Positions 7,365 through 28,659 of a stretch of DNA of 64,000 nt are shown here, piece after piece. Positions within the stretch are counted from its first letter, which is position 1. Each line of letters opens with the position of its first letter. The notes beneath the pieces are model-generated. The model was not told where the DNA came from, made no database searches, and saw only the letters and a list, made by a program, of their open reading frames with translations. The DNA comes from Denitratisoma oestradiolicum (GTDB taxonomy: Bacteria; Pseudomonadota; Gammaproteobacteria; Burkholderiales; Rhodocyclaceae): assembly GCF_902813185.1 (NCBI RefSeq), contig NZ_LR778301.1, forward strand, positions 1-64,000. The letters are read 5' to 3'. A program made the position numbers and the translations under genes.

Positions 7365-10283
7365 ATGGCAGTTACCGCAGCAATGCGTACCCAAGTTACC
7401 CAGCTTTATGTGGCCTTTTCGGCCGCGCGCCCGACTCCGAAGGTCTGGGCTACTGGGTCAATGAAATTTCCACCGGCGCCAAGACCCTGGTTCAAGTCGC
7501 CCAAGCGATGTACGACACCACCCCGGCCCGTACCTACTACCCGCTGTACCTGACGAACAACGAAATCGTCACCAACTTCTACACCAACGTTCTGGGCCGC
7601 ACCCCGGATGCCGATGGTCTGGCCTACTGGTCTGGCCAACTCGCCACCAAGTCTGCCGGCCAAGTCATTGCCGACATGATCACGGCCGTGGTCAATTATG
7701 CGGGTACTGACGCTGCCGCCCTGACTTCCCAGACCTTGTTCAATAACAAGGAAGCAGTTGCCGAGTACTACGCCGTGACCCAGCAGGGCAGCGCCACCAA
7801 CGCAACCGCTGCCATCTCCGGCGTGACCGCTACCTCCGACGTCAGCACCGACGCCGCCAAGGCTGCGATCATCACGGCTGGCACTGCCACCGTAAGCGCC
7901 CAGACCTTCACGCTCACTGCGGCTGTGGATAGTGGTCCTTCATTCGTTGGAGGATCGGGCAATGACACCTTCAATGCTTCGGTCGCCGTAAACACTGGTA
8001 CGGGTGTTTATGATGTTGAAACGCTGAGTGCCCTTGATATCATCGATGGCGGTGCCGGTACGGATACCCTGAACTACACGACGGTCGGTGGTACTGCACT
8101 GCCTGCTGCAACGCTGACCAGCATCGAGCTGATTAACGTCGTCTCTGATGGTGCTGTTACTGCTGATGTCCAGAATGCTTCCAGCGTAACCACCTTGACC
8201 GCTAAGGCCGTAGCTAATGCGGTGGACATTGACACCAAGGGCAATGCGACCTCTGTGACTGTTACCGGTACAGCTACTACCGTTGCAATTGACGACAACG
8301 GCGCTACTGGCGCTGACAAACTGGCCACGGTTAGCATCACCGGTAATACCGGCAATGTGACCATTGGTGCGAATGCCTCAACCGACACGCTGACCTCGCT
8401 GACCCTGATCAATTCTGTGAATGGCGATGCCACCGTGACGGCTGCCGCTGGCACGCGTGCCTTGGCGTTGACGCTGAATGGGGTAACCGGTCCGGGCAAT
8501 AACGTGGTCATTACCGATGATACGGCTACCACCTTGACCATCACTGGCACCGGTGCCCTTTCTTCTGCCATTGACCTTCAGGCGGACGCGGCGACGACGA
8601 TTTCCATCGCTGCTGATGAAAAGATTACCTTCGCTGCTATTGATGCCTCCGCAGCTACGACGCTGACGGTCACCGGCGACTCGCTGGTAACCTTTACCAC
8701 CAACACAGCGGCTGATCTTGGTGCTCTGACCACTGTTAATGCCTCCGGTAACACGGGTGGCTTGTCCCTTGGTACTGAGCTTGCTACCGGTGTTACCTTC
8801 ACGGGCAGTTCCGCTGCTGATAGTGTTAAGCTTGGCGCTACCACGAAGACCATCACCATGGGTGATGGTAACGATACAGTAACGCTCAGCGCCAACGTGG
8901 GTACAGGAGGCACCATTGATGCAGGTGCTGGTACTGCTGACGTACTGAGCCTGACCGAAGCATTGGCTGCCAATGACAGTTTGTCTGCAAGCACTACTTT
9001 CGAAGGCAAGATTTCTGGTTTCGAAGATTGGCACTGACTACAGTCACTGGTTCAAAACAGTTGATCTGGCTAATCTGGATGACATTTCCTGGGTTACCAC
9101 AACAGCGGCTACTGCTCTGACTCTGGATAAAATGACCTCGGGGGGTACGGTTCAAATAACTGCAGCCTCTACCGCGGTAACTGTAAATGTTACCGACGCT
9201 GCTCTGGGTGGTCATAACACTGATGTCCTTAACATCGAGCTCAAGGCTGCAACCAGTGGTGGAAACGTTGATTATGGTGCGCTGACGGCAGCGGCTGTCG
9301 AGACCATCAACGTTAACTCCACGCGCTCCGGCACGGTTGTGGCTGCGGATACCAACGAGATCGATCTGACTATTGCCAACGTTGTTACCCTGAACGTTAC
9401 GGGTGATGTTCTTGCTGATCTTGATGGTGCAGCCCTGGCAGGTAATGCTCTGGCGACGGTCAACGCCAGCACCAACACGGGTGGTCTGAAGGTTACGGTT
9501 ACTGGCGCTTCGCAGGGTATTGCGATCACCGGTAGTGCAACCAAGGCCAACACCATGGTCGGTGGTTCTGGCGGTGACGTTATCACTGGCGGCAGCGGTG
9601 TAGATACGGTTGATGGTGGCGCAGGCGACGACCAGATTTCTGGTGGTGCAGGTGCTGATGTAATCACTGGCGGTACCGGTATTGATACCATTGATCTCGG
9701 CTCCGGCGTTGCTGGCGACACCGTGAAATATGGTGCGGCAAATACGTTGCTTGCAGCCAACCGTGATGTGATCACCAACTTCACTGCTGGTGCGACTACT
9801 GCTGACACTGTTACAATTCTGGCAGCCTCAATTGTTGATACCACTGAAGCTGCTGGCGCAGGTGCCGCTACAGCCACTCAGTTCAAGACAATCAGCTCCA
9901 CTTTGGCTGCAGGCGCTGCGACCTTTACGGCAACAGGGTATGATGCTGATACGGGTTGGGTAATGGAGATTGCCACCACGCTGAGTTCGAATGGCGATTT
10001 GTCCTTGACGTCTGCCGCTGGTCTTAACGGGACTGAACTGCTCAAGGCACTGTCAAGCACGACGACTGCATCGACTGGTATCGCATTTACTGATACTACA
10101 GATACCGGTGCAGAAGCCACAGCTGGATATATCATTGCATATCAAAATGACAAGGCTTATCTGTACTATGCGGCTGATGCAGATAATAGCAACAGCTATG
10201 AAGCAACTGAAATTGCGCTGATTGGTACATTTAACGGTGTCACCGCAGGTGCCTTTACGTTTGATAATATCGTTGCTGCTTAA
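7365..10283 (+). CDS. DUF4214 / RTX calcium-binding S-layer-like surface protein
   Basis: About 970 Thr-, Ala- and Asp-rich residues without a signal peptide, as expected for a type I secretion substrate or S-layer protein. Residues 1-130 form DUF4214-like repeats: [20 protein letters not shown] after correction of one missing C near 7413, then [20 protein letters not shown]. The centre is a long beta-repeat of Thr/Ala/Val. Near 9540-9720 come RTX nonapeptides ([33 protein letters not shown]). The end has acidic and aromatic residues and closes with FDNIVAA, typical of type I secretion tails. A second frame change lies near 9026. AGGAG at 7352-7356 serves the ATG. Base composition is clearly less GC-rich than upstream, largely from amino-acid bias. 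An ideal CRP palindrome lies 140 bases upstream. Confidence 0.8.
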
Positions 10284-11098: not shown

Positions 11099-11707
11099 AT
11101 GGAAAGTGAACAGCTGGAAACTGAGGGTAAGGCCTCAAAATGGGAGCAAGCTCTTCAACGCTTAGAAATAACTCCGGAGCAGCGTCTCGTCATCGAGAAC
11201 GCCAAAGCAAAGGAGGCAGACGATTGGTCGCTGGAAGAAGCTGATCTGATTATGCGTGTCAGCCGTGAAGCGCGTCGTCTTCAGGCCGTTGATGAATATA
11301 AGGCTCTACCGCAAGATGACCGCGAGCGGGAGCACCATCGAGTATGGCAATTGATTGGCGGATATACCGCCTTCATTGCGGCGGCCTGCCTGGCGGTAAT
11401 CAGCTCTTCAAAATCTGAGGGCAGCTACGCATTCGCATTTTCGTTCTGGGTAGTCTCGCTGCCTCTTCTTTGCGGCGCAATGTTGCTGGACTACCACGTT
11501 CGAGTAAGGCAGGCGAGGCTTAACAGCAAAGTCAGGAGCTTCTTGCTGACGGTGGGCGTTTTATCAAGCCACTTAGGAACGGTGGGTATGGTGAGTACAT
11601 ACTCGTGGGTCGCAGCCGTCGTGTATGGGCTGTGTCCATTGTTGGTCGGCCTATATCTGCACGAAACCATCGCGCTTGGGGGCAGAAAAAACTTCGAGGA
11701 TCTTTAG
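11099..11707 (+). CDS. Membrane protein with cytoplasmic helical N-terminus, partner of AbiH
   Basis: 202 residues. Residues 1-90 are charged and helical (ESEQLETEGKASKWEQALQR), then four hydrophobic helices follow: LIGGYTAFIAAACLAVIS, FAFSFWVVSLPLLCGAMLL, SFLLTVGVLSSHLGTVGMV and WVAAVVYGLCPLLVGLYL. No known domain is recognised. The stop at 11705-11707 is one base before the TTG start of the AbiH gene and that gene's ribosome site lies inside this one, so the two are translationally coupled. Less GC-rich than the prophage genes, consistent with horizontal origin. Confidence 0.7.
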   Translation: MESEQLETEGKASKWEQALQRLEITPEQRLVIENAKAKEADDWSLEEADLIMRVSREARRLQAVDEYKALPQDDREREHHRVWQLIGGYTAFIAAACLAVISSSKSEGSYAFAFSFWVVSLPLLCGAMLLDYHVRVRQARLNSKVRSFLLTVGVLSSHLGTVGMVSTYSWVAAVVYGLCPLLVGLYLHETIALGGRKNFEDL

Positions 11708-11708
11708 A

Positions 11709-12614
11709 TTGAACGACAAGCTGTACGTCATAGGAAACGGCTTCGATCTCCATCACAGGATGCCGACCCAGTTTTCGGATTTTCGCACCTTTGCTCGAAA
11801 GGCTGCGCCAGATGTGTTCCGCGCCGTTGATGACTATGTGCCAGTGAGCGCCAACTGGTCAGACCTGGAGAATGCCCTGGCCGCCCTTGATGTCGAAACC
11901 GTCAAAGAGGACTTGAGCTGCTTCATGCCATCCTACGCTGCAGATGACTGGCGCGACTCCGGTCACCATGACTTTCAGTTTGAAGTGGATCGTGTGGTCC
12001 GCCAGCTTTCGGTAGAGCTGAGGTCGGTTTTTGCCCGATGGGTCCGGCAGATCAAAGTCCCGGATCTTGCCAATGCGCCTGGGGTCCATCGTCTGACGAG
12101 CATTGACCGCAGTGCATCTTTCTTGACGTTCAACTACACGCCCACCCTGGCTGATCTATACGGCGTGCCGCTGGAGCGAACGCTTCATATCCATGGCACG
12201 TCTTCCGATGATGACCAGGAACTGGTCCTGGGGCACGGCTGGAATTCGGCGATGCGGAAATCGCTGAATGACCGTCCAGACATCGAGGATGTGGACACCC
12301 GAATGATCGAGGCGAACCAGATCCTAGATCGGTACTTCACCGCCACCTTCAAGCCGTCAAAACAGCTGATCGCGCAGCACCAAGAATTCTTCCGCGCCTT
12401 GGACGAGGTCACGCACGTCACCGTCCTTGGGCACTCCCTTTCGAATGTGGACGCTGAGTATTTTCGGGCGCTGCTGGCGGTGCCAGCTGTGGCCTCGGCC
12501 ACCTGGACGGTGGCTTGCCGCCACAGCGACGATGCTGCTGAAAAAACTCAGCGGCTCGTTAACTTGGGCTTGCCGGCAAGTCAGATCAGGGCGGTTGCAT
12601 GGACCTCACTTTGA
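11709..12614 (+). CDS. abiH: AbiH-family phage-resistance protein
   Basis: About 301 residues. The N-terminus LYVIGNGFDLHHRMPTQFSD is the hallmark of AbiH proteins (lactococcal abortive infection AbiH), followed by FLTFNYTPTLADLYG, LHIHGTSSDDDQELVLGHG and, near the C-terminus, HVTVLGHSLSNVDAEYF. The TTG at 11709 is chosen because GAGGA lies eight bases before it and family members start just before the (L)YVIGNGFD strand; an upstream in-frame start at 11625 would overlap the membrane gene. The biochemical activity of AbiH proteins is not established. Coupling with a four-helix membrane protein suggests a sensor/effector pair. Confidence 0.85.
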   Translation: MNDKLYVIGNGFDLHHRMPTQFSDFRTFARKAAPDVFRAVDDYVPVSANWSDLENALAALDVETVKEDLSCFMPSYAADDWRDSGHHDFQFEVDRVVRQLSVELRSVFARWVRQIKVPDLANAPGVHRLTSIDRSASFLTFNYTPTLADLYGVPLERTLHIHGTSSDDDQELVLGHGWNSAMRKSLNDRPDIEDVDTRMIEANQILDRYFTATFKPSKQLIAQHQEFFRALDEVTHVTVLGHSLSNVDAEYFRALLAVPAVASATWTVACRHSDDAAEKTQRLVNLGLPASQIRAVAWTSL

Positions 12615-12633
12615 TTGACCGTTAACAAAACAA

Positions 12634-12663
12634 TTGACAGCAAACCTTCACCTTCTCTACAAT
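12634..12663 (+). promoter_or_regulatory. Sigma-70 promoter of the XRE/ImmA genes
   Basis: TTGACA (12634-12639), an 18-base spacer, then TACAAT (12658-12663). It sits in the short gap after AbiH. GTTAAC-type hexamers flank it at 12621-12626 and 12687-12692. Confidence 0.8.
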
Positions 12664-12668
12664 CATCG

Positions 12669-12691
12669 TTAATAAATCACGCAACGGTTAA
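12669..12691 (+). promoter_or_regulatory. Putative repressor operator, copy 1
   Basis: Begins TTAATAA, contains GCAACGGTT, and lies just after the -10 and before the XRE start. Without gaps it matches 13867-13889 at 18 of 23 positions. Placement suggests autoregulation by the XRE protein. Confidence 0.55.
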
Positions 12692-12696
12692 CGATC

Positions 12697-12966
12697 ATGG
12701 GCTTCGGCACCTTCATCCGAGAAAAACGCGAGCAGGCCAATGTGCCGATGAACGAGTTCGCTCGCAGCCTGGGCATCTCGCCGGCCTACTGGTCGCGCAT
12801 CGAGCGCGAACTGGAGAAGGCGCCCAAGGATGAGCTGATCACCAAGGCTGCAGAGAAGCTCGGTCTCAACCCCGACGAGGCTTTCATCGAGGCCAGCCGC
12901 TTGCCCCCGGATATGCAGAAGGACGTCAGCACGGTCGTTCGCCTGTATCGCAAATCCCTGGGTTAA
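12697..12966 (+). CDS. XRE-family helix-turn-helix repressor
   Basis: 89 residues. The helix-turn-helix spans about residues 5-60: FIREKREQANVPMNEFARSL, then GISPAYWSRIERELEKAP. Short for a full phage repressor, it has only a small C-terminal tail (DMQKDVSTVVRLYRKSLG). It is followed 11 bases later by an ImmA/IrrE peptidase. This is the arrangement of ImmR/ImmA-type pairs, in which the peptidase cleaves the repressor to release lysogeny or defence genes. Two similar operator-like sequences (12669-12691 and 13867-13889) are its probable targets. Confidence 0.85.
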   Translation: MGFGTFIREKREQANVPMNEFARSLGISPAYWSRIERELEKAPKDELITKAAEKLGLNPDEAFIEASRLPPDMQKDVSTVVRLYRKSLG

Positions 12967-12977
12967 GGCGGTGACGG

Positions 12978-13808
12978 ATGCCAGCGCTTTCCCTGCGGTA
13001 TGACCATTGCTCCCTTCGCAAGCCTCGCTACCTGAACAAGTTCGCCATCGAGACCGTGGCCCGTGAGGCCAGAGCACAGCTTTTGTCTCCTGGCGCGGAT
13101 GCGCTGACACTGGCGCAACTGGCGGCCATCTCCGATCTGACCATCAACGGCCTGCCGTACCAACTGTGGGTCAGTCTGGATCATCCCGTCACCGATGAGG
13201 ATGGTCTGCCCGTATTGGGCCTGTGCGAGTTCGACCCAGATTGCGGCGAAGACGCCGTCTCCGTGCTGGTCTCACCGGTCGGCGAGCAACTCACGCCCGA
13301 GCTGGCGCTGTCCACCTTCGCCCACGAACTGGGCCACGCCATCTTCGACGCCCCGGCCTGGCTGATTGCTGCCAAGCAAGGGCCGGGATTGTTCGACGAA
13401 CCGGATACCAGTCAGCGCCGTGCTTACCGCACGGCCACGCCGGATGCTGAACACCTGGGCGCCACGGCGCAGCCGCAAAACACCGCCCTCGAGAAAGAAA
13501 TCCGCATCGCCGAGTTCCGCGCCAACGAGTTCATGGGCTCGCTGCTGGTGCCGCGCGACCGCCTGGTCGAGCTGGCTGTGGCCCGTGCGCCGGACTTCGA
13601 TGTCGGCATTGAGCGCGATGGCGGCCTGTCTGAGGAACTGCACGCCGCTACACCTCGGCTGATCGAGCAAGGTACCTTCGGCTTCGTCGGTATGGAAAAC
13701 CTCCAGCGCGAACTGGCCGCCACCTTCGGCGTGAACCCCAAATTCATCCGTGTGCGGATGGAACGCTACGGGCTGCTGCCCACTCTGCCTGGTAGAGGAC
13801 AAGCATGA
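12978..13808 (+). CDS. ImmA/IrrE-family metallopeptidase
   Basis: 276 residues. The zinc motif HELGH is at about residues 117-121 (TFAHELGHAIFDAP), with a downstream acidic region IRIAEFRANEFMGSLLVPRD that supplies the third ligand in this family. The C-terminal 50 residues (LQRELAATFGVNPKFIRVRM) look like a winged-helix substrate-binding tail. By family knowledge it would cleave the adjacent XRE repressor. No better in-frame start is apparent than the ATG at 12978. Confidence 0.85.
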   Translation: MPALSLRYDHCSLRKPRYLNKFAIETVAREARAQLLSPGADALTLAQLAAISDLTINGLPYQLWVSLDHPVTDEDGLPVLGLCEFDPDCGEDAVSVLVSPVGEQLTPELALSTFAHELGHAIFDAPAWLIAAKQGPGLFDEPDTSQRRAYRTATPDAEHLGATAQPQNTALEKEIRIAEFRANEFMGSLLVPRDRLVELAVARAPDFDVGIERDGGLSEELHAATPRLIEQGTFGFVGMENLQRELAATFGVNPKFIRVRMERYGLLPTLPGRGQA

Positions 13809-13831
13809 GTCACTGATCGGATGCGCAACAC

Positions 13832-13855
13832 GCCGGCCGGGTGCCGGCATTTTTT
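13832..13855 (+). terminator. Terminator after the ImmA gene
   Basis: GCCGGC (13832-13837), five-base loop, GCCGGC (13843-13848), then a T run at 13850-13855. Confidence 0.8.
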
Positions 13856-13866
13856 GAGCACTGATA

Positions 13867-13889
13867 TTAATAGTTCGCGCAACAGTTTA
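13867..13889 (+). promoter_or_regulatory. Putative repressor operator, copy 2
   Basis: TTAATAGTTCGCGCAACAGTT, the ungapped counterpart of the sequence near the XRE promoter. It lies between the ImmA terminator and the next gene (ATG 13920, AAGGAG at 13907-13912). This would place the two-gene operon under the XRE repressor. Confidence 0.55.
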
Positions 13890-13919
13890 ATTAAACGCCA
13901 CTCGTAAAGGAGAACAAGA

Positions 13920-15316
13920 ATGGCAGAAGTCGACGTGATGGATACCCGTGAGTCAGATCCGACGGCCCTCGCCGCAGAGGCGACTGCTGCGGGTGGCGGC
14001 AAACCACGCAAGCCACGGGCCACCGATGGTGGGCCGGAGATCCTGCCCGACATGGGGCACTACGTGACCCTGGTGCGCAAGATCAAGCATCGCGCGCTGG
14101 TGGCGCAGTGGCTACAGCACCTGCACCCTGAGGAGCTACCCGGCATCGAGTGGGAGCACAAGGTCTGCACCAGCTACAAGCAGAGCCTGTTCACCGTGGT
14201 CGCGGGCCTATCCGGTGCCATCCGTCAGCGGCTGGAGGAAGCCGCACAGCGCGTCCTGCTGCTGTCGGATGACTTTGGGTGCGAGGCCGTCAAATCGCTG
14301 CTGAGCGAAGACGACGAGACTGAGCAACAGGCGGTGGCGGTCGCCGGCGACAAGTACGGCCGGGCGCTCTACCTGTACCTGTGCCGCCTGGCGGACGACA
14401 AGGACCGCCGGTTTGAGCAGGCCGAAACCGCCCGGCAGCAGAACAAGCAGTGGAAGTCCGAAGCCTACGCCAGCCACTTCCGGGGGCCGAAGGCGGTCGA
14501 TATCACCTTGGACGACACGCTCAAGGACAAACTCAAGGTGGCGATTGCCGTCATCTACTCGCAGGCACCGCTGCACGATGTGGTCATCGAGCATTTCCAG
14601 CGCCGCGACCTGACCCAGGCCGAGGACCGTGGCGGTGAGGACGAGTCGGCTCCGGTCTGGTTGCACACCATCGTGGTCGGCTTCAACGGCAAGGAAACCC
14701 ACTGGGACAAGATCGTCGACGGCGAGGTGACCACGCGCCACGATCAGGCCCTGCAGCGCATCACCTTCTCGTATGAGCCGAGCACCGGCGCGCTGTCGGT
14801 GTTCTGCGATGACCGGAATGCCCGCCAGGAACTCGCCAAAGCCCTGCGCGATGTGGTGCTGGCCAGCGACACTGAAATCGCCGAGATGCCGCTGCGCGAG
14901 TTCAGCCTGAAGGCCTTCGGCAGCGCCGAGGTGTTCAACCTGCTCAAACCCGAACCCGGCGACGGCATCGAGCGCATCAGCATCAACCTGATCAAGGTAG
15001 CCAAGCGTCTCGAACAACAGGGCGAAGACGGCACGCTGGAAGTTACGAGCGGCATGACCATCCACCGCGACCGCCGTGATCAGCGCGATGTCTATCGCGT
15101 GGCCCGGAAGACTACAAACAGAACGATCTCAGCGGGTTTAACTTGGTGCAGGTCAAGCTGGTGCTGCGCATTGCAAAGCAAAAGGACCGTCGCGCCCACA
15201 ATATCGTCGTGCAGATCACTGCGCCCAACGGCCTGAACGACAACGCCAAGACCGAGGATGAACGCCAGCTGGTGATGCGCCTGCTGAAACGCTGGCACAT
15301 CGTCACCGAGTTCTGA
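13920..15316 (+). CDS. Unrecognised protein, first gene of an XRE/ImmA-linked operon
   Basis: About 465 residues after repair of one frameshift near 15105 (the last part reads DLSGFNLVQVKLVLRIAKQK and ends KRWHIVTEF, TGA 15314-15316). An Ala/Lys-rich N-terminus (GGGKPRKPRATDGGPEILPD) precedes a helical region with KHRALVAQWLQHLHP, then a beta/alpha part with VWLHTIVVGFNGKETHWDKI and TFSYEPSTGALSVFCDDRNA. No catalytic signature or membrane helix is recognised. It is followed 11 bases later by a second unknown gene. With its own terminator-bounded promoter carrying the same operator as the repressor, it behaves like cargo of the regulatory pair. Confidence 0.65.
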
Positions 15317-15327
15317 GGAGGCTGCCG

Positions 15328-16259
15328 ATGCTGACAGAGACGCTGCAACGGCTGGAGCGATTGGACGGGATGGACAGCACGCTGTTCGGCAGAGAACTGC
15401 TGAGCTTTGGCCGCTTGCTGCTGGACAGGGGTTGGATCGCCGCCATTGGTTACTTCAGCCACATCGATGTCGAGGTGATGGACGATATCTTCGAGGAGGT
15501 GGAGGTCACGGTCGATGAGGCAGCGGGCCGCTACACCTACCCGCACCCATTCCGGCGCAAAGTGATCCTGAGCGGTTCCTTGCACGAGGTCACCCGCTAC
15601 CGTTTCCAGCGCGAGCCCTTCTTTGACCACCTGGCCACCCTGCTGGGCATCGAGCCCCGGTTTGCCGTGCGCCGGCGTTGCCTGGTCGAGCATCACCTCT
15701 GGTATCTGGGTGACCTCCGTGTCGGCAACCGCCATGCGTTTGCGCCGATGTTCTTCGGGCGACGGCTCAGGATGCACCAGTTGAGCAGGTCACCTCGGCC
15801 TTGTCCGACCCGGCGTTCGGCACGGGTGGCGTGGTGCTGGCACTGAAAGATCCGAAGCTGGCCTTGCCCAACGGACACCAGGTGCGTGCCGTGGCCGATC
15901 TGCTGGTCGTGGAGGACGGCGTGGAGCAGTTCGATCTGCCGGTGCTGGAGCGGATTCTGGTAAGTCGGCACGCCGCGCCTGAATTGGCCGAGCTGGTCAT
16001 CGAATGCGCGCCGGACGGCTCCTGGCTTCGGGTGGGGGACCGAGAGTTGCGCAACATCCGAGGGCAACAGCAGGACTTCGTGCTCACGATGGTCGATGCC
16101 TACAAGAAGGGCAACCGACGGCCGAAAGTCGAATGGGCCTTCCGGGTCGCAGGCTACGGCGAGGGCACCTACGACCTGCGGCACATCACGCGCCGCAAGG
16201 AGTTCTTCGATTTCTTCGCCCAAGGAGGGGGCGAGTGCTGGATCGTCACCGAGCATTGA
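15328..16259 (+). CDS. Unrecognised protein, second gene of the XRE/ImmA-linked operon
   Basis: About 310 residues after repair of one indel near 15750 (FAPMFFG joins ATAQDAPVEQVTSALSDPAF). GAGGAG before the ATG is a good ribosome site. The protein is soluble and mixed alpha/beta. The last 70 residues (RGQQQDFVLTMVDAYKKGNR, then GYGEGTYDLRHITRRKEFFD) look like a winged-helix or nucleic-acid-binding fold, but this is only an impression. It ends at 16259 before the phage early operon. No family recognised. Confidence 0.6.
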
Positions 16260-16372: not shown

Positions 16373-16903
16373 ATGCAAACCCATTCTTCGGCCCTCGCGG
16401 CCACCCCACAACCGGCAGCCACCGTCCTCGACATCGGCAGTCTTCCCTCCAACTCGAAGACCTCACCCGCGAGCGCATCAAGGCTGCCCAAGCCGGCACT
16501 GCAGGAACTCTCCGTCCTACTCGCCGAAATGGACTTATGTCTGCGCCACGCCCGTGAGCAGCTGACCGCTGCGCTCGATGAGCTCTACGGCGACGCTGCC
16601 CGTGCGCAACTGCTCGACGCCGGCAAGGATACCGGTACCACGCACCTGACCGACGGCGATCTGGCCATCACGGTCGAGATCAAGAAGTCGGTGTCCTGGG
16701 ATCAGGGTGAACTGGCCGCCATCGCGCAGCGCATCGCCAGCAACGGCGACGACCCAGCGGAATACATCGACGTGAAGTATTCGGTGTCGGAGCGCAAGTT
16801 CGCCGCCTGGCCCGAAACCCTGCGCCGTCCCTTTGAGGCTGCCCGCACCCTCAAACCCGCCAAGCCGGCCTTCCGCCTGGCAATCGTTGGGGAGGGCAAG
16901 TGA
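16373..16903 (+). CDS. Hypothetical early phage protein
   Basis: 176 residues, no family recognised. Residues about 45-176 are helical then mixed (VLLAEMDLCLRHAREQLTAA, HLTDGDLAITVEIKKSVSWD). Residues encoded at about 16452-16495 read more naturally in another frame (EDLTRERIKAAQAG), so a compensating pair of indels is possible. It is the first gene of a tightly overlapping early operon and shares a TGATG junction with the ATPase after it, so a role in that recombination/replication module is likely. Confidence 0.6.
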   Translation: MQTHSSALAATPQPAATVLDIGSLPSNSKTSPASASRLPKPALQELSVLLAEMDLCLRHAREQLTAALDELYGDAARAQLLDAGKDTGTTHLTDGDLAITVEIKKSVSWDQGELAAIAQRIASNGDDPAEYIDVKYSVSERKFAAWPETLRRPFEAARTLKPAKPAFRLAIVGEGK

Positions 16904-17781
16904 TGGCACTCCCGATCATCAGCGCTGACCAGCGATTGTCAGAAAAACGCTGCGCCAAGGTGGCCCTCGTTGGTGTGCCGGGCGCGGGCAAGACCTCCCA
17001 AATTCGCACGGTCGATGCCGAGCGCACCTTGCTGGTGGACACCGAAGCCGGCGATCTGTCCATCCTCGATTGGGCCGGCGACACCCTGCGCCCGCGCACC
17101 TGGCCGGAGTTCAAGGACCTGGTGGTGTTCCTCGCCGGGCCGAGCCCAAGTGCGTCACCCGAGCAGGCCTTTTCACAGGCGCACTTCGACCACGTCTGCC
17201 AGAAGTACGGCGATCCGGCGCAACTGGCCAAGTACGACACCTACTTCGTCGATTCCTTGACCGTGCTCTCGCGGATGTGCCTGGCCTGGTGCAAGACCCA
17301 GCCGGCGGCCTTCTCCGAGAAGACCGGCAAGCCCGACACCCGGGGCGCCTATGGCCTCTTGGGCACCGAAATGATCGGTGCGCTCACGCACCTGCAGCAC
17401 GTGCGGGACAAGCACGTCATCTACGTCTGCATCTTGGAAGAGAAGCTGGACGACTTCAACCGTCGCGTCTACCAACTGCAACTCGAAGGCGCCAAGACAT
17501 CGGCCGAATTGCCGGGCGTGCTCGATGAAGTGATCACGCTGGCCATCTTGAAGGCCGACGACGGCACGCCGTACCGCGCCTTCGTCACCGGTGCGGACAA
17601 CGCCTGGGGCTTCCCGAGCAAGGACCGCAGCGGTCGGCTCGACCCCATCGAAGAACCCCACCTCGGAAAGCTCATCGCCAAGTGCCTCGGCCGCGACGCC
17701 ATCGCACGCCCGGCTGCACCTGCCACCGCTTTCTCGAGCGCCAGCACCCCATCCCCCGATTTCCACGCATCCCAGGAGTAA
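16903..17781 (+). CDS. Phage P-loop ATPase (RecA/AAA_24-like)
   Basis: About 292 residues. Walker A is GVPGAGKTS at about residues 24-32. TLLVDTEAGDLSILDW supplies a nearby acidic strand, and YFVDSLTVLSRMCLAWCKT is the Walker B/sensor region of phage nucleotide-binding (AAA_24) ATPases. Two later strands, KHVIYVCILEEKLDDFNRRV and PYRAFVTGADNAWGFPSKDR, fit the RecA-like core. It probably acts in DNA recombination with the following DUF669-like protein and the PD-(D/E)XK nuclease. The ATG at 16903 overlaps the previous stop. Confidence 0.75.
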   Translation: MALPIISADQRLSEKRCAKVALVGVPGAGKTSQIRTVDAERTLLVDTEAGDLSILDWAGDTLRPRTWPEFKDLVVFLAGPSPSASPEQAFSQAHFDHVCQKYGDPAQLAKYDTYFVDSLTVLSRMCLAWCKTQPAAFSEKTGKPDTRGAYGLLGTEMIGALTHLQHVRDKHVIYVCILEEKLDDFNRRVYQLQLEGAKTSAELPGVLDEVITLAILKADDGTPYRAFVTGADNAWGFPSKDRSGRLDPIEEPHLGKLIAKCLGRDAIARPAAPATAFSSASTPSPDFHASQE

Positions 17782-17787
17782 GCCGCC

Positions 17788-18426
17788 ATGTCCAACTGGA
17801 ACGACTTCAACGACGCTGAACAGCAGCAGTCCTTCGACCTCATCCCGCGCAACACGGCTGCCAAGCTGCGCCTGACCATCAAGCCGGGTGGCTTTGATGA
17901 CCCGGCACAGGGCTGGACCGGCGGCTGGGCCACCCAGAGTTTCGAGACCGGTGCGGTTTACCTCGCCTGCGAGGGCGTGGTGATGGAAGGCCCGTTTGCC
18001 AAACGCAAGATCTGGTGGAACGTCGGTCTGCACAGCGCCAAGGGGCCGACCTGGGGGAACATGGGCCGGACCTTCATCCGGGCAGCGCTCAACTCCGCGC
18101 GCAATGTCCATCCGGCCGACAACAGCCCGCAAGCGCAGGCGGCCCGCCGCATTGCCGGCTTCGGTGACCTCGATGGCCTGGAGTTTGCCGCCCGCATCGA
18201 CATCGAGAAGGATGGCCGGGGCGAGGACCGCAACACCATCAAGGCCGCCATCGAGCCAGACCACAAGGACTACGCCCTGGTCATGGGCGTGATGCCCAAG
18301 GGCAATCCCGGTGGCAACTCCGGTGCGCCGGCAGCGGTCGCTGCACCCAGCTACACGCCACCGGCTGCTGCCGCACGTCCTGCCCCATCCACCGTCCCCA
18401 GCGGCAAACCCGCCTGGGCGCAATAA
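17788..18426 (+). CDS. DUF669-like phage protein, possibly single-strand DNA binding
   Basis: 212 residues. A compact beta-rich N-terminus (LIPRNTAAKLRLTIKPGGFD, FETGAVYLACEGVVMEGPFA) is followed by GRTFIRAALNSARNVHP and LEFAARIDIEKDGRGEDRNT, the layout of DUF669-type proteins that accompany phage recombination ATPases. The C-terminal 45 residues are Pro/Ala/Ser-rich and probably disordered, as in single-strand-binding proteins. The link to ssDNA binding is by position and composition. Confidence 0.6.
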   Translation: MSNWNDFNDAEQQQSFDLIPRNTAAKLRLTIKPGGFDDPAQGWTGGWATQSFETGAVYLACEGVVMEGPFAKRKIWWNVGLHSAKGPTWGNMGRTFIRAALNSARNVHPADNSPQAQAARRIAGFGDLDGLEFAARIDIEKDGRGEDRNTIKAAIEPDHKDYALVMGVMPKGNPGGNSGAPAAVAAPSYTPPAAAARPAPSTVPSGKPAWAQ

Positions 18427-18440
18427 GGGAGGGCGTGACG

Positions 18441-19298
18441 ATGATGAGCACACCTATTCTCACGACCAGCCATTACGGCGTGGTGCGTTTTGGTGACCTG
18501 GCGGTGGAAGCCGTGGTGCTGGAAGACGGCACCCGGGGCTATGTGCAGCGCCAGTTGGCCACCGCCATCGGCCTGCACGAATCGCGCCGGGGCAGCCAAC
18601 TCAAAACCTTGCTGTCCGATGTCGCCCCCGGCGCAGCGGAGGTCCTGCAGGAGAACGCCTGCAGCATCCGCCTGCCCTCGGGGCAGACTACGGCGTTCTT
18701 CCCGGCCGGGGTGATCAGCGAGGTCGCCTCTGGCGTGATCGACGCCGCGCTCGAAGGCCGTCTGCACCGCAAACGCCAGCACCTGGTGCCCAACTGCCAG
18801 CGCATCCTGAAGGCGCTGGCCAAGTCTGGCGAAGTCGCCTTGATCGACGAGGCTACCGGCTACCAGTACCACCGTGCCCCCGATGCCTTGCAGGCCTTGA
18901 TCTCGCGCTTGCTGCGTGAGCGCGTGGCCAGCTGGGAGCGGCGCTTCACCCCCGACTACTACCGGGCGCTGTTTCGCCTGTTCGGCTGGCACTACCAGGG
19001 CCATCAGCAAAACCCGCCGGCGGTGATCGGCCAGATCACCCTACGCTGGGTGTACGACGTGATCATGCCCCGCGAAATCATCGAGGAGATCAGGAGCCGC
19101 AAGCGCCTCTCAGACAAGGCCCATCAGTGGCTCTCCGAAGGCGGTCTCGCCCTCCTGGAAAAACAGATCCACGCGGTGACCATGATTGCGCGCTCGTCGA
19201 TGACCTACCGGGACTTCGATACCCGCTGCGCCACGGCGTTTGGCAGCCAGCCGCTGCAGATGACCCTCTTCATCGGTGCGCTGGAGGGAGGGCAATGA
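18441..19298 (+). CDS. P63C-domain protein
   Basis: About 285 residues. The N-terminal half resembles an AntA/Bro-type DNA-contact region (VLEDGTRGYVQRQLATAIGL), and the C-terminal half carries the P63C signature: YYRALFRLFGWHYQ, NPPAVIGQITLRWVYDVIMP and EIIEEIRSRKRLSDKAH. The function of P63C proteins is not established; they occur in phages and mobile elements. AGGGAGG at 18426-18432 suits the ATG at 18441 (a GTG at 18435 is also possible). Confidence 0.75.
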   Translation: MMSTPILTTSHYGVVRFGDLAVEAVVLEDGTRGYVQRQLATAIGLHESRRGSQLKTLLSDVAPGAAEVLQENACSIRLPSGQTTAFFPAGVISEVASGVIDAALEGRLHRKRQHLVPNCQRILKALAKSGEVALIDEATGYQYHRAPDALQALISRLLRERVASWERRFTPDYYRALFRLFGWHYQGHQQNPPAVIGQITLRWVYDVIMPREIIEEIRSRKRLSDKAHQWLSEGGLALLEKQIHAVTMIARSSMTYRDFDTRCATAFGSQPLQMTLFIGALEGGQ

Positions 19299-19865
19299 AT
19301 GGCCGGGCAGTGTTGGGTCTGCAAGCGGCAGGCCCGTGGCCTCGGCCACAGCGACAACCGCTTCAAGGTCGGCGAATCCCGTCGGTACCCGATGGACTGG
19401 GTCTTTTGCAGCCGCCAATGCCAGGACGCGTTTCACGCGCTCTACGGCCAGTGGCTGCGAACCGACCCCAGGCAGGAGGACGTGCTCATGGTTGACCCGA
19501 CCGAATTCGAGCGCGCGGCGATGCGCGCTTGCCTGAGGTTCTTCGGCGAGGCCGCCGGTGAGATCGGCTTTGACAAGCCGCTGGGTCACTACAGCGAGGC
19601 CGAAGCCTTGCAGGTGATCGAGGCGATTGTGACCGGCTGGACGGAGGCCATGGCGGCGCACCACCAGCAGGCGAAGTATCCGCCGGTGCGGGGGCTCGCC
19701 CCCTATGAGACACAGGCGCCGCAGCCGGTGGCCACGTTGGAGCCAGCCTCGGCAACGATCACCTTCGATCCGGCGAATCCCTTCGCTGATCTGGAGGACG
19801 ACCTGCCGTGGGAGACCGGGGAGGCAGTGGCGGCCAAGGCCACCCGGCGTGGGAGGGCGAAGTGA
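19299..19865 (+). CDS. Cysteine-motif phage protein (DUF6511-like)
   Basis: 188 residues. CWVCKRQARGLGHSD and DWVFCSRQCQDAFHALYGQW give a CxxC...CxxxC-type zinc knuckle at the N-terminus. The middle is helical (ALQVIEAIVTGWTEAMAAHH) and the end is acidic/basic. It resembles DUF6511 proteins, named from memory. It is sandwiched between the P63C gene and the PD-(D/E)XK nuclease with TGATG-type overlaps, which suggests shared expression and a part in nucleic acid handling. Confidence 0.55.
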   Translation: MAGQCWVCKRQARGLGHSDNRFKVGESRRYPMDWVFCSRQCQDAFHALYGQWLRTDPRQEDVLMVDPTEFERAAMRACLRFFGEAAGEIGFDKPLGHYSEAEALQVIEAIVTGWTEAMAAHHQQAKYPPVRGLAPYETQAPQPVATLEPASATITFDPANPFADLEDDLPWETGEAVAAKATRRGRAK

Positions 19866-20620
19866 TGTTGGACTTCAATCATCGCCCCGCCTTCCACGAG
19901 CGGGTAACGGGCTTCATCGATGCGGCGCTGGATGTTGAACGTGCCGGGCAGACCCCGCGTGACTACCTTGGTGCTTCCCGTCTGGGCGTGGCCTGTGAAC
20001 GTGCGTTGCAGTACGAGTACGCCGGTGCGCCGGTCGATCCCGGCCGGGGATTTTCTGGCCGCATCCTGCGGGTGTTCGAGGTCGGCCATGCGCTGGAAGA
20101 CCTGGCCGTGCGCTGGCTGCGCATGGCGGGCTTCGAATTGCACAACCAGAAGGCCAACGGCGGCCAGTTTGGCTTTTCGGTGGCGGGTGGCCGGATCAAG
20201 GGCCACGTCGACGGGATCATCACGGCGGCACCACCAGAGCTGGGACTTTCTTTCCCGATGCTCTGGGAGTGCAAGACCATGGCCGACAAGCACTGGAAGG
20301 CCTGTGTCAAGTCTGGCGTGGCGGTCACCAAGCCAGTCTATGCCGCGCAGATGGCCACTTACCAGGCCTACATGGAAGGCTCGGTCGAAGGCATCAGCCG
20401 TAATCCGGCACTCTTCACCGCCATCAACAAGGACACGCAGGAGCTGTGGTTCGAGCTGGTGCCCTTCGATGCGGGGCTGGCCCAGAAGATGTCCGACCGC
20501 GCGGTGCGGGTGATCCAGGCGACTGAGGCCGGTGAGCTCTTGCCACGCGGCTTCGCCGAGGCCAGCCACTTTGAGTGCAAGTTCTGCAGCTACGCGCAGC
20601 GTTGCTGGGGAGGTGTGTGA
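19865..20620 (+). CDS. PD-(D/E)XK nuclease (Cas4/RecB-like phage exonuclease)
   Basis: 251 residues. The PD-(D/E)XK core is GHVDGII followed by MLWECKTM, with YAAQMATYQAYM as the following helix. A Cys in GVACERALQYEY and the C-terminal ECKFCSYAQRCW provide four cysteines in the Cas4/AddB arrangement for an iron-sulphur cluster. It would resect double-stranded ends for the ATPase/DUF669 pair. The ATG at 19865 overlaps the previous stop. Confidence 0.8.
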   Translation: MLDFNHRPAFHERVTGFIDAALDVERAGQTPRDYLGASRLGVACERALQYEYAGAPVDPGRGFSGRILRVFEVGHALEDLAVRWLRMAGFELHNQKANGGQFGFSVAGGRIKGHVDGIITAAPPELGLSFPMLWECKTMADKHWKACVKSGVAVTKPVYAAQMATYQAYMEGSVEGISRNPALFTAINKDTQELWFELVPFDAGLAQKMSDRAVRVIQATEAGELLPRGFAEASHFECKFCSYAQRCWGGV

Positions 20621-21071
20621 TGAGCACAGCTTCCAAGCGCGCCAGCGCACGCAAGACCTACCGCACCGAGTGGGTGGATCGCTGGTCGCCCCCCAAACCC
20701 CTGGTCGGGCTGCAGGCCATCGAGAAGGTGCTCAATCGCCACACCTTTCTGGTGACACCGGAGTCCCGGCTGGTGGTGGCGGTGCTCGCCCGCGCCATTC
20801 ACGACAGCCTGAGTTTGACCAACCGCCGGATGCGGCGCGAGGCCCGGCGCTTTCTGCTCGGGGAGGACCTCACGCTCTGGTGTGACCTGGTCGGCTTGCA
20901 TCCGGACTTCGTGCGCTTCGTCGCCCGCCGCACTGGCAGAAGGTGCCGATCAAGGTGCCGGTCCTGCCGGTACCGAATGAGCCGGTGGTCAGCGCCAGCA
21001 GCGCGCCCGTGCATTCCATCACCTGCCACGCCCACAACCATCCGCCACAGGGAGGACTGATCCATGCTTGA
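20620..21071 (+). CDS. Hypothetical phage protein, frameshifted near its end
   Basis: About 150 residues. The first 105 residues are basic and helical (GLQAIEKVLNRHTFLVTPES, HDSLSLTNRRMRREARRFLL). After about 20935 the open frame turns into an Arg/Ser-rich string, while an adjacent frame gives HWQKVPIKVPVLPVPNEPVV and ends HNHPPQGGLIHA at 21069-21071, overlapping the primase start. A single indel at CGCCGCACTGG explains this. No family recognised. Confidence 0.55.
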
Positions 21072-23389
21072 TTTCAATTCGGTGCCGCCGCAGGCCTTCC
21101 CTGTTGGTGGTGACCTCAACCAACAACGCGACGCCATCCGTGCCGATCTGCTGGCGCGGCTGGAGTCGGTGCTGATGACGCTGCTGCCGGCCGGCAAGAA
21201 GCGCGGCCAGAAATACCTGGTCGGTGATGTGCTGGGCAGTCCTGGCGACAGCCTGGAGGTGTCGCTCAAGGGGGAAACCGCTGGTCTGTGGCACGACCAT
21301 GCCACGGGTGAAGGCGGTGACATCTTTGATCTGATCGCTGCCCACTATGGGCTCGACACCCAGGCAGACTTCGCCAGGGTTCTGGAGATCGCCGGGCAAC
21401 TGGTGGGGCGAGCCACCAACCATCCCCCGAAGCGCAAGAAGGCGGAAGCCCCGGTCGATGAACTGGGTCCGGCCACGGCTAAGTGGGACTACCTGGATGC
21501 TGCCGGCAACCTGATCGCCTGTGTGTATCGCTACGACCCGGCACCGGGCAGGAAGGAGTTCCGCCCCTGGGATGCCAAGCGCCGCAAGATGGCCCCACCC
21601 GAGCCGCGTCCGCTCTACAACCAGCCGGGCATCGTTGCTGCCGAACAGGTGATCTTGGTCGAGGGCGAGAAGTGCGCGCAGGCCTTGATCGAAGCTGGCA
21701 TTGTGGCCACCACGGCAATGCACGGCGCCAACGCGCCGGTCGACAAGACGGACTGGTCACCGCTGGCGGGCAAAGCCGTGCTCATCTGGCCCGACCGGGA
21801 CAAACCGGGATTCGGGTATGCCGAGGCCGCTTCGCAAGCGGTGCTCATGGCGGGGGCCACCTCCTGCGCCATCCTGCTGCCGCCGGACGCCAAGTCGGAA
21901 GGCTGGGATGCGGCGGATGCATTGGGTGAAGGCTTCGATGTGGCGGGCTTCCTTGCCACCGGGCCGCGTATCACGGTGCAGCCCTTCGATGACGACCAGG
22001 CGCCATCGGCTCACTTCGATGCTGCCGACCATGACGAGTCTCACGACAGCGATGCCACGGTCTGGGGCACGGAGGATGCCCTGGCGGTGAGTTTTACCCG
22101 GCGCTACCAGCGCGACTGGCGCTATCGCGGCCTGGGGCAAATGGCTGATGTGGGATGGGCAGCGCTGGCGGGCCGAGGAGACCTTGGCGGCGACTGACCT
22201 GATCCGTCACGTCTGTCGCCACGCAGCAGTCCGCGCAGACAGCAGCAAGGTGGCAGCCAAGCTCGCCGCCAGCAGCACCGTGGGCGGGGTGGAACGTCTG
22301 GCCCGCACCGACCGCCGGCACGCGGCGACCACCGACGAGTGGGATGCGGACATCTGGCTCATCAACACGCCGGGTGGCGTGGTGGATCTGCGCACCGGCC
22401 GGATGCGCCCGCACGACCGTGCCGACCGGATGACCAAGATTGCTGCGGCCACCCTGGTGCCGGGCAGCAGCTGCCCCAACTGGATGCGGTTTCTGGATCA
22501 GGTCACCGGCGGCGATGCTGAGCTGCAGTCCTACCTGCAGCGGGTGTTTGGCTACTGCCTGACCGGGGCGACCAGTGAGCACGCCTTGTTCTTCCTCTAC
22601 GGCACCGGCGCCAACGGCAAGTCGGTGTTCGTGAACACGCTCTTCACCCTGCTCGGGGACTATGCCGCCAACGCCCCCATGGACACCTTCATGGAAACAC
22701 GCGGGGATCGGCATCCGACCGATCTAGCGGGATTGCGGGGTTCGCGCTTTGTCGGTGCCACCGAGACCGAGCAGGGTCGGCGCTGGAACGAGTCGAAGAT
22801 CAAGGAGATCACCGGCGGCGACCGAGTCTCTGCACGCTTCATGCGCCAGGACTTCTTCACCTACGTGCCGCAGTTCAAGTTGGTGATCGCCGGCAACCAC
22901 AAGCCGGCCATCCGCAACATCGATGAGGCGATGCGCCGGCGTCTGCACCTGATCCCCTTCACGATCACCGTGCCCCCGGAAAAGCGCGACAAGCAGCTGC
23001 AGACCAAGTTGCTGGCCGAGGCCAACGGCATCTTCAGCTGGGGCGTCGAAGGGTGCCTGGCCTGGCAGCGCGAAGGGCTGCGCCAGCCTCAATCGGTGCT
23101 GGATGCGACGGACGAGTACTTCGAAGCGGAAGACGCGCTGGGCCGCTGGCTCGAGGAATGCTGCGTGCGCCACCCCAATGCCAAGTCGCTGACCGCTGAG
23201 CTGTTCAGCGACTGGAAGCAGTGGGCGGAGGCGGCCGGGGAGTTCGTCGGCTCGCAAAAGCGCTTTGCCGATCTGCTGCTCACCCGAGGCCTGGAGAAGT
23301 GGCGCAACGGCATGGGCCTGCGGGGATTCCAGGGGGTGGGCCTCAAGGAGACCCCGAAGGACCGCTTTACGCCCTATGCCGACAACTGA
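21064..23389 (+). CDS. Toprim-primase / D5-type replicative helicase, frameshifted
   Basis: About 775 residues after repair of one indel near 22130 (extra G; RYRAWGKWLMWDGQRWR would be continuous). The N-terminal 350 residues are a primase-associated zinc/toprim part: WHDHATGEGGDIFDLIAAHY, VILVEGEKCAQALIEAG and VLIWPDRDKPG. The C-terminal 410 residues are a P4/D5-type superfamily 3 helicase: a D5_N region (CPNWMRFLDQVTGGDAELQS), Walker A GTGANGKS, RFVGATETEQGRRWNESKIK, and KLVIAGNHKPAIRNIDEAMR followed by arginine-finger RRRLHLIPF. It would start phage DNA replication. It is followed by a strong dyad, a candidate origin. Confidence 0.85.
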
Positions 23390-26677: not shown

Positions 26678-27238
26678 ATGGGACTGTCCATCCGGGCCTA
26701 TGCCCAACACCGTGGCGTGAGCCACACCGCTGTGGCCAAGGCCATCCAGGCCGGGCGCATCAGCAAAGAACCCGACGGCACCATTGACCCGGTCAAGGCC
26801 GACGCCCAATGGGCGCGAAACACGCTGCCGTCACAGAACCTCAATACTGGCGCCCCGAAGCCTGCGGCCAAGGTGGCAACCCCACCTGTTTCCACCCCGG
26901 TTTCCACGGCACCAGTTTCCACTCGTGAGGTGCAAGCGCCGCTGGAAACCCGGGCTGCCGCGCCTGACTACCAGACCAGTCGCGCCATACGCGAGGCCTA
27001 TGCCGCGCGCCTGGCCAAACTCGAATTCGAAGAACGCACGGGCAAGCTGCTCAACGCCGACGAGGTGAAGGTCAAGCACTTCAACCTCGCGCGGCTGCTG
27101 CGCGACCGCATCCAGCAAATCCCTCGCAAGCTCGCCCCGCAAATCGTGGCGGCCGTGGTCGCACAGCCCGACCAGCGCGTGGTGGAAGACCTGCTGATGG
27201 AGGCGATCCGCGAAGCCCTGGAGGAACTCTCACGATGA
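26678..27238 (+). CDS. Small terminase-like packaging protein (Nu1-like)
   Basis: 186 residues. MGLSIRAYAQHRGVSHTAVA is a Nu1-type helix-turn-helix for binding the cos/pac site. A Pro/Val/Thr linker follows, then a helical C-terminus (YAARLAKLEFEERTGKLLNA, ARLLRDRIQQIPRKLAPQIV) of the kind that contacts the large subunit. CGGAGGA lies eight bases before the ATG at 26678. The 195 bases before it hold no gene. The large subunit is 10 kb downstream, not adjacent. Confidence 0.7.
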   Translation: MGLSIRAYAQHRGVSHTAVAKAIQAGRISKEPDGTIDPVKADAQWARNTLPSQNLNTGAPKPAAKVATPPVSTPVSTAPVSTREVQAPLETRAAAPDYQTSRAIREAYAARLAKLEFEERTGKLLNADEVKVKHFNLARLLRDRIQQIPRKLAPQIVAAVVAQPDQRVVEDLLMEAIREALEELSR

Positions 27239-28659
27239 CCGTCACCCCTGCCATGGCCAGTCGTATCGAGATGTGGCCACTGGATCGGCTCAAGCCCTAC
27301 CAGAGAAATGCCCGCACCCACTCCGACGCTCAGGTGGCGCAGATCGCCGCCAGCATCGTCGAGTTTGGCTTTACCGCGCCGCTCCTGGTGTCGGAAGACG
27401 GTGGCATTCTCGCGGGTCACGGTCGCCTGGCTGCCGCCAGAAAGCTCCATCTGGATGCCGTGCCCGTGGTGGTGCTCGACCATCTCACAGCCACCCAGCG
27501 CCGCGCCTACATCCTGGCGGATAACCAGCTGGCGCTGCAGGCCGGATGGGATCAGGAACTGCTCGCCGTCGAGTTGGCTGACCTGTCAGCGGCCGGCTTT
27601 GATCTGGCATTGACCGGATTCAGCGATGAAGAACTGGCCGACCTGCTCGGCGATATCGAAGAGGCCGAGCGTGCCGATGAGGCTGCGCCCATTGGCGAAC
27701 CCGAGGATGAGGACATTCCGGATGTGCCGGCCACCCCGGTCAGCCGAGCCGGCGACATCTGGCAACTGGGTGCGCACCGCCTCGTCTGCGGCGACTCGAC
27801 CGACCCGGCCGTGGTCGCTGCGCTGATGGCGGGCGACCAGGCTCGCCTGTGCTTCACCAGCCCACCCTACGGTCAGCAGCGCAACTACACCCAGGGCATC
27901 GCCGATTGGGATGCGCTGATGCGCGGCGTCTTCGCCCACCTGCCGATGGCCGACGACGGCCAGGTGCTGGTGAATCTGGGTCTGATCCACCGCGACAACG
28001 AAGTGATCCCGTATTGGGATGGCTGGATCAGTTGGATGCGCACTCAAGGCTGGCGACGCTTTGGCTGGTACGTCTGGGACCAGGGGCCGGGGATGCCTGG
28101 CGACTGGGCCGGACGCCTGGCCCCCAGCTTCGAGTTTGTCTTCCACTTCAACCGCGAAAGCCGAAAGCCCAACAAGATCGTGCCGTGCAAGCACGCCGGA
28201 CAGGAATTGCACCTGCGCGCCGACGGATCATCGACGGCGATGCGCGGCAAGGATGGTGAAGTCGGTGGCTGGACCCATGCCGGGCAGCCTACCCAGGACT
28301 ACCGCATCCCGGACAGCGTGATTCGCGTGATGCGCCACAAGGGCAAGATCGGCCGGGACATTGATCATCCGGCGGTGTTTCCGGTGGCCCTGCCCGAGCA
28401 CATCTTGCTGGCGTACTCGGACCCGGGTGATGTTGTCTTCGAGCCCTTCGGCGGCTCCGGTACCACGATCCTGGCCGCCCAGAAGACGAATCGCGTGGCC
28501 CGTGCCATCGAACTCGCCCCGTCCTACACCGACGTGGCGGTCAAGCGCTTCCAACAGAACCACCCCGACATCCCGGTGACCTTGCGGGCCACCGGACAGA
28601 CCTTCGCCGAGGTCGAATCAGAACGACTGGAGAACACCGATGCAAGCCTGGCTCGCTGA
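27235..28659 (+). CDS. ParB-like domain fused to a DNA methyltransferase (SPPY type)
   Basis: 474 residues. Residues 1-100 are a ParB/Srx-like fold (YQRNARTHSDAQVAQIAASI, ILAGHGRLAAARKLHLDAVP). The methyltransferase core has motif IV CFTSPPYGQ at about residue 206 and motif I FEPFGGSGTT at about residue 402, so motif IV precedes motif I (beta class). SPPY occurs in N4-cytosine and some N6-adenine enzymes; the base cannot be settled from sequence. The ATG overlaps the previous stop. There is no companion endonuclease, so it is probably a phage protective enzyme. Confidence 0.85.
   Translation: MTVTPAMASRIEMWPLDRLKPYQRNARTHSDAQVAQIAASIVEFGFTAPLLVSEDGGILAGHGRLAAARKLHLDAVPVVVLDHLTATQRRAYILADNQLALQAGWDQELLAVELADLSAAGFDLALTGFSDEELADLLGDIEEAERADEAAPIGEPEDEDIPDVPATPVSRAGDIWQLGAHRLVCGDSTDPAVVAALMAGDQARLCFTSPPYGQQRNYTQGIADWDALMRGVFAHLPMADDGQVLVNLGLIHRDNEVIPYWDGWISWMRTQGWRRFGWYVWDQGPGMPGDWAGRLAPSFEFVFHFNRESRKPNKIVPCKHAGQELHLRADGSSTAMRGKDGEVGGWTHAGQPTQDYRIPDSVIRVMRHKGKIGRDIDHPAVFPVALPEHILLAYSDPGDVVFEPFGGSGTTILAAQKTNRVARAIELAPSYTDVAVKRFQQNHPDIPVTLRATGQTFAEVESERLENTDASLAR

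Follow-up and report, generated by a model that had tools for sequence, protein, structure and literature searches.

What do an XRE-type repressor and the metallopeptidase encoded beside it control near the start of the Denitratisoma oestradiolicum chromosome? The window analysed here is a stretch of 64,000 nucleotides, positions 1 to 64,000 of contig NZ_LR778301.1 (NCBI RefSeq assembly GCF_902813185.1). Between positions 12634 and 16259 it encodes, in order and on the forward strand, an XRE repressor, a peptidase of the M78 family, and two further proteins that we call A and B. An initial annotation, made from the letters alone, saw an ImmA-type peptidase and its repressor holding A and B silent through a shared operator, as an isolated inducible system. 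The regulatory logic survives the present analysis but the isolation does not: together, the four genes probably form the lysogeny switch and open the early operon of a contractile prophage resembling the phage AcaML1. A prophage switch is of a known kind; the early gene pair A-B, of which no description was found in an open-access library, would be the new part.

The four genes and their relatives

The repressor (89 amino acids; 12697-12966) matches Pfam HTH_3 at 39.9 bits and is CI/ImmR/CapH-like. The peptidase (276 amino acids; 12978-13808) is ImmA/IrrE/CapP-like. Its Pfam M78 score of 21.7 bits lies just below the 22-bit cut-off, and its HELGH motif is present in all 29 near-full-length copies, the window's included. 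Together these features support the XRE/ImmA-type pair originally proposed.

Protein A (13920-15316) and protein B (15328-16259), encoded on the same strand, are each split into two frames or fragments in the window. The contig is an unclosed circular chromosome, and the window is its start: the contig ends repeat about 55 kb with many indels (window 1-55027 against G000:C1:4113673-4168563), at 99.6% identity over 1-54417 and 97% over the last 0.4 kb. Any frame slip within the window should therefore be read with caution. Because the contig-end copy is intact, with 465 amino acids for A (L004:13642-15039) and 310 for B (L004:15051-15983), the breaks in these two genes are most likely sequencing indels. 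Both proteins are also intact in most relatives.

A scan of GTDB genomes with an alignment of A yielded 33 loci (34 with the window), some of which, including L012, L020, and L031, end early. The viral set comprises the best 80 of 107 uncultivated viral contigs that carry A, with 63 usable regions upstream of XRE and 74 upstream of A. The remote set comprises 18 stretches taken from 398 surveyed genomes of the phylum; at some of these loci the upstream genes were read in part only. A search for A and B as a conserved pair next to XRE/ImmA had been proposed as a check, and such a pair is found: among the 34 loci with A, B is present in 34, XRE in 32, and M78 in 31. Allochromatium humboldtianum DSM 21881, which can be cultured, is among the carriers of the set (L007). 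Two of the 398 genomes, G290 and that of the window, encode this M78 subfamily, and A is found in each. The 50,697 phage records searched contain no match to M78, A, or B; to XRE they contain just two (36% identity).

A shared operator at two promoters

What ties the regulators to A and B is a 23-bp sequence. It lies downstream of the −10 element of the XRE promoter (12669-12691, forward strand) and, as first reported from the window alone, recurs ahead of A-B (13867-13889, forward strand), identical at 18 of 23 positions without gaps. No other match of at least 16 of 23 occurs on either strand of the window. Scored with a weight matrix drawn from 44 unique sites, themselves included, the two reach 29.9 and 27.3 bits, and the rest of the window stays below 6 bits throughout; the highest scores in three shuffled windows were 6.4, 14.1, and 8.4 bits. 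In the 4.29-Mb genome, a core pattern derived from the two sites themselves occurs exactly only at these sites, each doubled by the overlapping contig ends. One mismatch admits one further place, and a reversed-pattern control finds four places at one mismatch or fewer.

The pair of sites recurs in relatives. Exactly the two expected operators are present in 29 of the 33 genome loci, a count that is not independent, because the matrix was built from the window and these loci. The exceptions are L012, which lacks the XRE end; L020 and L036, which have no site; and L038, which has only a weak one elsewhere. Within the viral set, itself partly related to the training loci, a score of at least 20 bits is reached in 57 of the 63 usable regions upstream of XRE and in 66 of the 74 upstream of A. 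When A is clustered at 85% nucleotide identity, both sites occur in 21 of 24 clusters, training loci among them (exceptions: L020, L036, and L195). More than two sites are found in only 1 of 95 loci, and none of 828 background stretches scores above 13.6 bits. A chance repeat is rejected on these window, genome, matrix, and cluster results, and the proposal of one operator at two promoters, judged by its motif, holds across relatives.

A second kind of site appears at some loci. By eye, TTGCGCGTT half-sites replace the operator upstream of both XRE and A in L020, L036, and the viral loci L147, L153, L157, L163, and L164; L195 is mixed, and in L146 and L156 the half-site precedes A, with XRE outside the stretch. 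Many standard XRE promoters carry this half-site as well, near their −35 element, so the replacements suggest, but do not prove, that repressor and operator co-evolve. The XRE promoter may itself carry a second repressor site, the CGTTAACAAAACA motif just upstream of its −35 element (12620-12632, forward strand); GTTAACnAAAC-like motifs occur in 70 of 95 XRE upstream regions.

The promoter and terminator likewise lie where the initial annotation had put them. The XRE-M78 operon has a σ70 promoter, TTGACA-18 nt-TACAAT (12634-12663, forward strand), with 11 of 12 consensus matches, and an intrinsic terminator (13832-13855, forward strand; stem 13832-13848) separates this operon from A. Simple scans return counts not far above those in shuffles: 1 promoter against 0.5, and 2 terminators against 2.8. 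Comparison across 31 loci, the window among them, shows the terminator in 30, with a stem that changes on both sides, from GCCGGC/GCCGGC to GCCGAC/GTCGGC.

The probable head of a phage early operon

Far from being isolated, A-B head a series of phage early genes. Next on the same strand are g177 (16373-16903; phrog_2480), a phage early gene of unknown function, and a gene for a Sak4-like single-stranded DNA (ssDNA) annealing protein (16900-17781; AAA_24). Downstream of A-B in the 34 genome loci, window included, g177 is found in 29, Sak4 in 26, and primase pieces in 24 and 22; the 80 viral loci contain g177 in 72 cases and Sak4 in 68. Recombination-module genes are present in 11 of the 18 remote stretches. 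A terminase is encoded in 22 of the 33 genomes with A loci. In 14 of these it shares its contig and strand with A and follows 5.2 to 19.4 kb farther on; a fifteenth candidate, L036, did not bear this out. Gene order and proteins match those of AcaML1, and a tyrosine integrase lies past the window's right edge (L041:2358-3617); for these reasons the region is, by sequence comparison, an AcaML1-like contractile prophage.

This setting bears directly on the idea that XRE and ImmA, as a CapH/CapP-like pair, silence a stand-alone antiphage or stress system and release A and B as defence effectors upon ssDNA from phage or damage. Such a system has the CapP-CapH precedent, weak PADLOC matches of XRE to capH (E 5e-4) and of M78 to capP (E 1.1e-3), and an AbiH gene directly upstream of XRE in its favour. 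Neither A nor B matches anything in PADLOC, although that says little if the two are undescribed effectors, as they may be; among the eight proteins scanned, only AbiH gave a strong defence match. The position of A-B ahead of phage recombination genes, with g177 as the marker (29/34 genome and 72/80 viral loci), leads us to reject stand-alone defence as a first choice; we consider it very unlikely. By analogy with RexAB, a defence side-effect inside the lysogen, in the form of superinfection exclusion, may accompany the switch.

Exchange of the regulators

In some relatives, other regulators or another arrangement of XRE and M78 stand before A. Upstream of remote A genes, XRE and M78 are divergent in L096, L097, L100, and L107, and co-directional in L101 and L103; the Pfam scan covered part of this set, and the M78 of L103 was recognised by its HExxH motif rather than by Pfam. 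S24/LexA repressors precede A-B in L109 and L112, and a WYL protein lies upstream of A in L111. In the viral locus L136, whose A is 85% identical, an S24/LexA-type repressor replaces XRE-M78, and no operator is present. Phage immunity regions typically exchange repressor types in this way, ahead of a single early operon. The swap from XRE-M78 to a LexA-type repressor before the same operon also constitutes a natural experiment, comparing SOS-dependent with SOS-independent induction.

The initial annotation had regarded discovery of the two proteins without their regulators, and with a known phage role, as grounds for abandoning its proposal. The first part was found: the pair occurs without XRE and M78 in L109, L112, and L136, as does A in L111. 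No member with a tested phage role was found.

These exchanges also help to decide whether XRE-M78 might control A-B only, as a moron-like insert, with the real lysis-lysogeny repressor of the prophage elsewhere. That arrangement would fit a genome with only two operators. It would fit as well the gap between B and g177 (113 nt in the window; 102 to 1118 nt across loci), which makes a separate downstream promoter possible, and a weak HTH_31 protein (21.5 bits, below cut-off) encoded beside the right-end integrase (L041:3538-3942). However, the proteins that relatives put in the place of XRE-M78, S24/LexA or divergent XRE-M78, are typical phage master repressors, and L152, L159, and L015 each have a serine integrase a short distance upstream of the switch. 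A moron-like insert is therefore rather unlikely, and a switch governing the prophage itself remains the preferred reading.

Proteins A and B

A and B were first described as lacking recognised domains. This is correct for the sequences: A matches only phrog_37634, of unknown function, along with sub-threshold matches such as Imm51 at 14.5 bits, and B has no domain match. It is not correct for the predicted structure of A, whose fold resembles RdgC and CENP-N. Comparison with the PDB puts kinetochore CCAN chain N (E 4.6e-4) and RdgC (E 7.3e-4) at or near the top, and comparison with BFVD does the same for phage RdgC-like proteins. Of the 398 genomes, 21 encode A; the window's own is one of them, and 19 carry remote relatives. 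Profiles of close and remote A can be aligned along 386 columns with a probability of 99.9%. On a 107-kb plasmid of Ca. Tenderia (L209; CP013100.1), a remote homologue of A (22.7%) has another gene directly downstream, all annotated as hypothetical.

It is doubtful, although a serious possibility, that the TBP-like domains of A resemble RdgC and CENP-N by chance, and that A acts in replication or in another early process unrelated to recombination or the switch. Two structure libraries agree on the resemblance, and recombination genes follow A. This alternative concerns the role of A alone and is compatible with a lysogeny switch. A far bolder suggestion would have A found a third phage/bacterial branch of the RexA/RdgC/Chl4 fold, with the domain order of CENP-N as modelled (a helical domain, then two TBP-like units, about 460 residues), clamping DNA with B upon ssDNA sensing; phages would then be a possible source of kinetochore CENP-N/CENP-L-like proteins. 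We think this unlikely.

B has a conserved N-terminal part and an exchangeable C-terminal domain. Present in 14 of the 398 genomes, it adjoins A in 14 of the 18 remote stretches (not in L105, L106, L111, or L113), and at four places (G221:C86, G189:C10, G142:C306, and G197:C28) there is no A match on the same contig. The second C-terminal type is found in separate 177-amino-acid proteins as well as in L139 and L140. On this basis a single origin of B by fusion with a neighbour's end is rejected, and sequence comparison makes exchange of the C-terminal domain between phages likely. The window-type C-terminal domain also occurs in 177-amino-acid proteins with another N-terminus (L139, L140, and protein P0163).

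A proposed mechanism

The operator pair, the terminator, the gene order, and the regulator swaps are established as features of sequence. The mechanism that we propose for XRE, M78, A, and B extends these features through family precedent and predicted structure, and we hold the resulting account, a lysogeny switch joined to the head of an early operon, to be probable. XRE would repress both promoters. By family, M78 would be activated by ssDNA from damage or stalled replication and would then cleave XRE; both operons would open, and XRE would be remade as a brake. The inducible logic of the first proposal keeps its place, by analogy with ImmR/ImmA, PprI-DdrO, and CapP-CapH. A, judged by its predicted structure, would bind DNA through a RexA/RdgC/Chl4 fold; it would either hold the DNA of the phage, damp RecA, and give way to the phage annealing and exonuclease genes, or steady the lytic state as lambda RexA does. 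B would be the partner of A, with a small C-terminal domain, winged-helix-like by our own reading, swapped between phages.

Several observations weigh against this account. The promoter of A has no convincing −10 element, and the promoter scan lists the XRE promoter alone. Given the variable gap between B and g177, a single transcript from A to Sak4 is an assumption. A tail gene follows B in L032 and a ParB gene lies 3 kb on in L017, so A-B can persist without a recombination block; module genes are also missing from 7 of the 18 remote stretches, four of them on contigs shorter than 5 kb. The Xanthomonas prophage loci L030 and L031 have no M78, and there the XRE operator scores lower (25.3 and 24.6) and the A operator is kept (37.9). 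As for A itself, its Foldseek TM-scores are low (0.16 to 0.26 in the four best rows), with middling Z, and the RdgC (PF04381) and RexA (PF15969) profiles do not detect it by sequence (for PF15969, no Pfam hit at E 1 and an hhalign E of 0.59); one RdgC sequence comparison with A used 13 of 25 RdgC loci. Finally, a weak B-like match lies within Gp6 of AcaML1, and AcaML1 has neither XRE/M78 nor A (49 of 59 kb covered in part of the comparison) and a different regulator gene there.

If the account is right, the locus is the immunity region of a widespread prophage group absent from the phage records searched. The operator predicts which two promoters an ImmA-type switch controls, and links that switch to a conserved gene pair. 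Should A prove to be a clamp like RexA or RdgC, a single phage circuit would combine the sensing of ssDNA through ImmA with control over RecA-type recombination.

The rest of the prophage

Beyond Sak4, the forward strand encodes: a phrog_2300 protein of unknown function (17788-18426; PHROG match), which, by gene order, may be SSB-like; a P63C-domain protein (18435-19298; domain match); g188, a phage protein of unknown function (19299-19865; phrog_21342); a Cas4-domain exonuclease (19808-20620); and a primase/helicase lying in two frames in the window copy (21064-23389). Farther on are ParB-methyltransferase fusions, terminase, portal, capsid, baseplate, sheath, tape-measure-like, and endolysin-like proteins. 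The ParB-methyltransferase fusions are two in tandem (27235-29773), alike each other and AcaML1 Gp24 and Gp25.

Three consecutive tyrosine recombinase genes lie inside the prophage on the reverse strand (31544-34688), with PHROG matches for all three and Pfam matches for both of those checked; the row resembles a recombinase-in-trio element. The AbiH gene (11625-12614; 211.7 bits), directly upstream of the XRE promoter, recurs in L008 (7790-8692) at 91% identity and is likely a cargo defence gene. Large repeat proteins flank the prophage at 7508-10283 (DUF4214 and RTX-like matches) and L041:4201-6696 (judged by eye), and insertion may have cut one of them. The exact prophage ends were looked for and not found.

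Comparison with known systems

ImmR/ImmA of prophages and ICEBs1, PprI-DdrO, and CapP-CapH each resemble this locus in combining a small XRE repressor with an adjacent M78 peptidase. They are alike in a further respect: one operator, here by motif only, stands at both the repressor's own promoter and the inducible operon. In contrast to all three, the repressor operon here is co-directional with the operon it would control, and a conserved terminator stands between them. PprI and CapP are described as triggered by ssDNA (PMC10904395), and ImmAR-type pairs as running prophages (PMC12637031).

The lambda cI-rexA-rexB region is similar in that a predicted RexA/RdgC-fold protein, here A, is encoded beside a repressor. 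RexA is reported to bind DNA and to bias the lambda switch toward lysis, and a RexA/RdgC/CENP-N-type fold has been published for it (PMC11077077). A differs from RexA in its 465 amino acids, its extra N-terminal helical part, its lack of a RexA profile match, and its own operator; unlike RexB, B is not membrane-like (peak hydropathy 1.2, versus 2.4 for RexB). No sequence similarity to A was detected for RdgC or for CENP-N/Chl4 with CENP-L/Iml3, and the host's own RdgC is encoded elsewhere.

A close known counterpart of the element as a whole is AcaML1 (JX507079), described as a 59-kb temperate phage of Acidithiobacillus caldus (PMC3826726) and elsewhere named a myovirus (PMC5567305). The two share their gene order, and their proteins are mostly 54 to 94% identical: terminase 94%, portal 87%, capsid 81%, primase 78-89%, and, along roughly the first three quarters of the protein, tape measure 91%.

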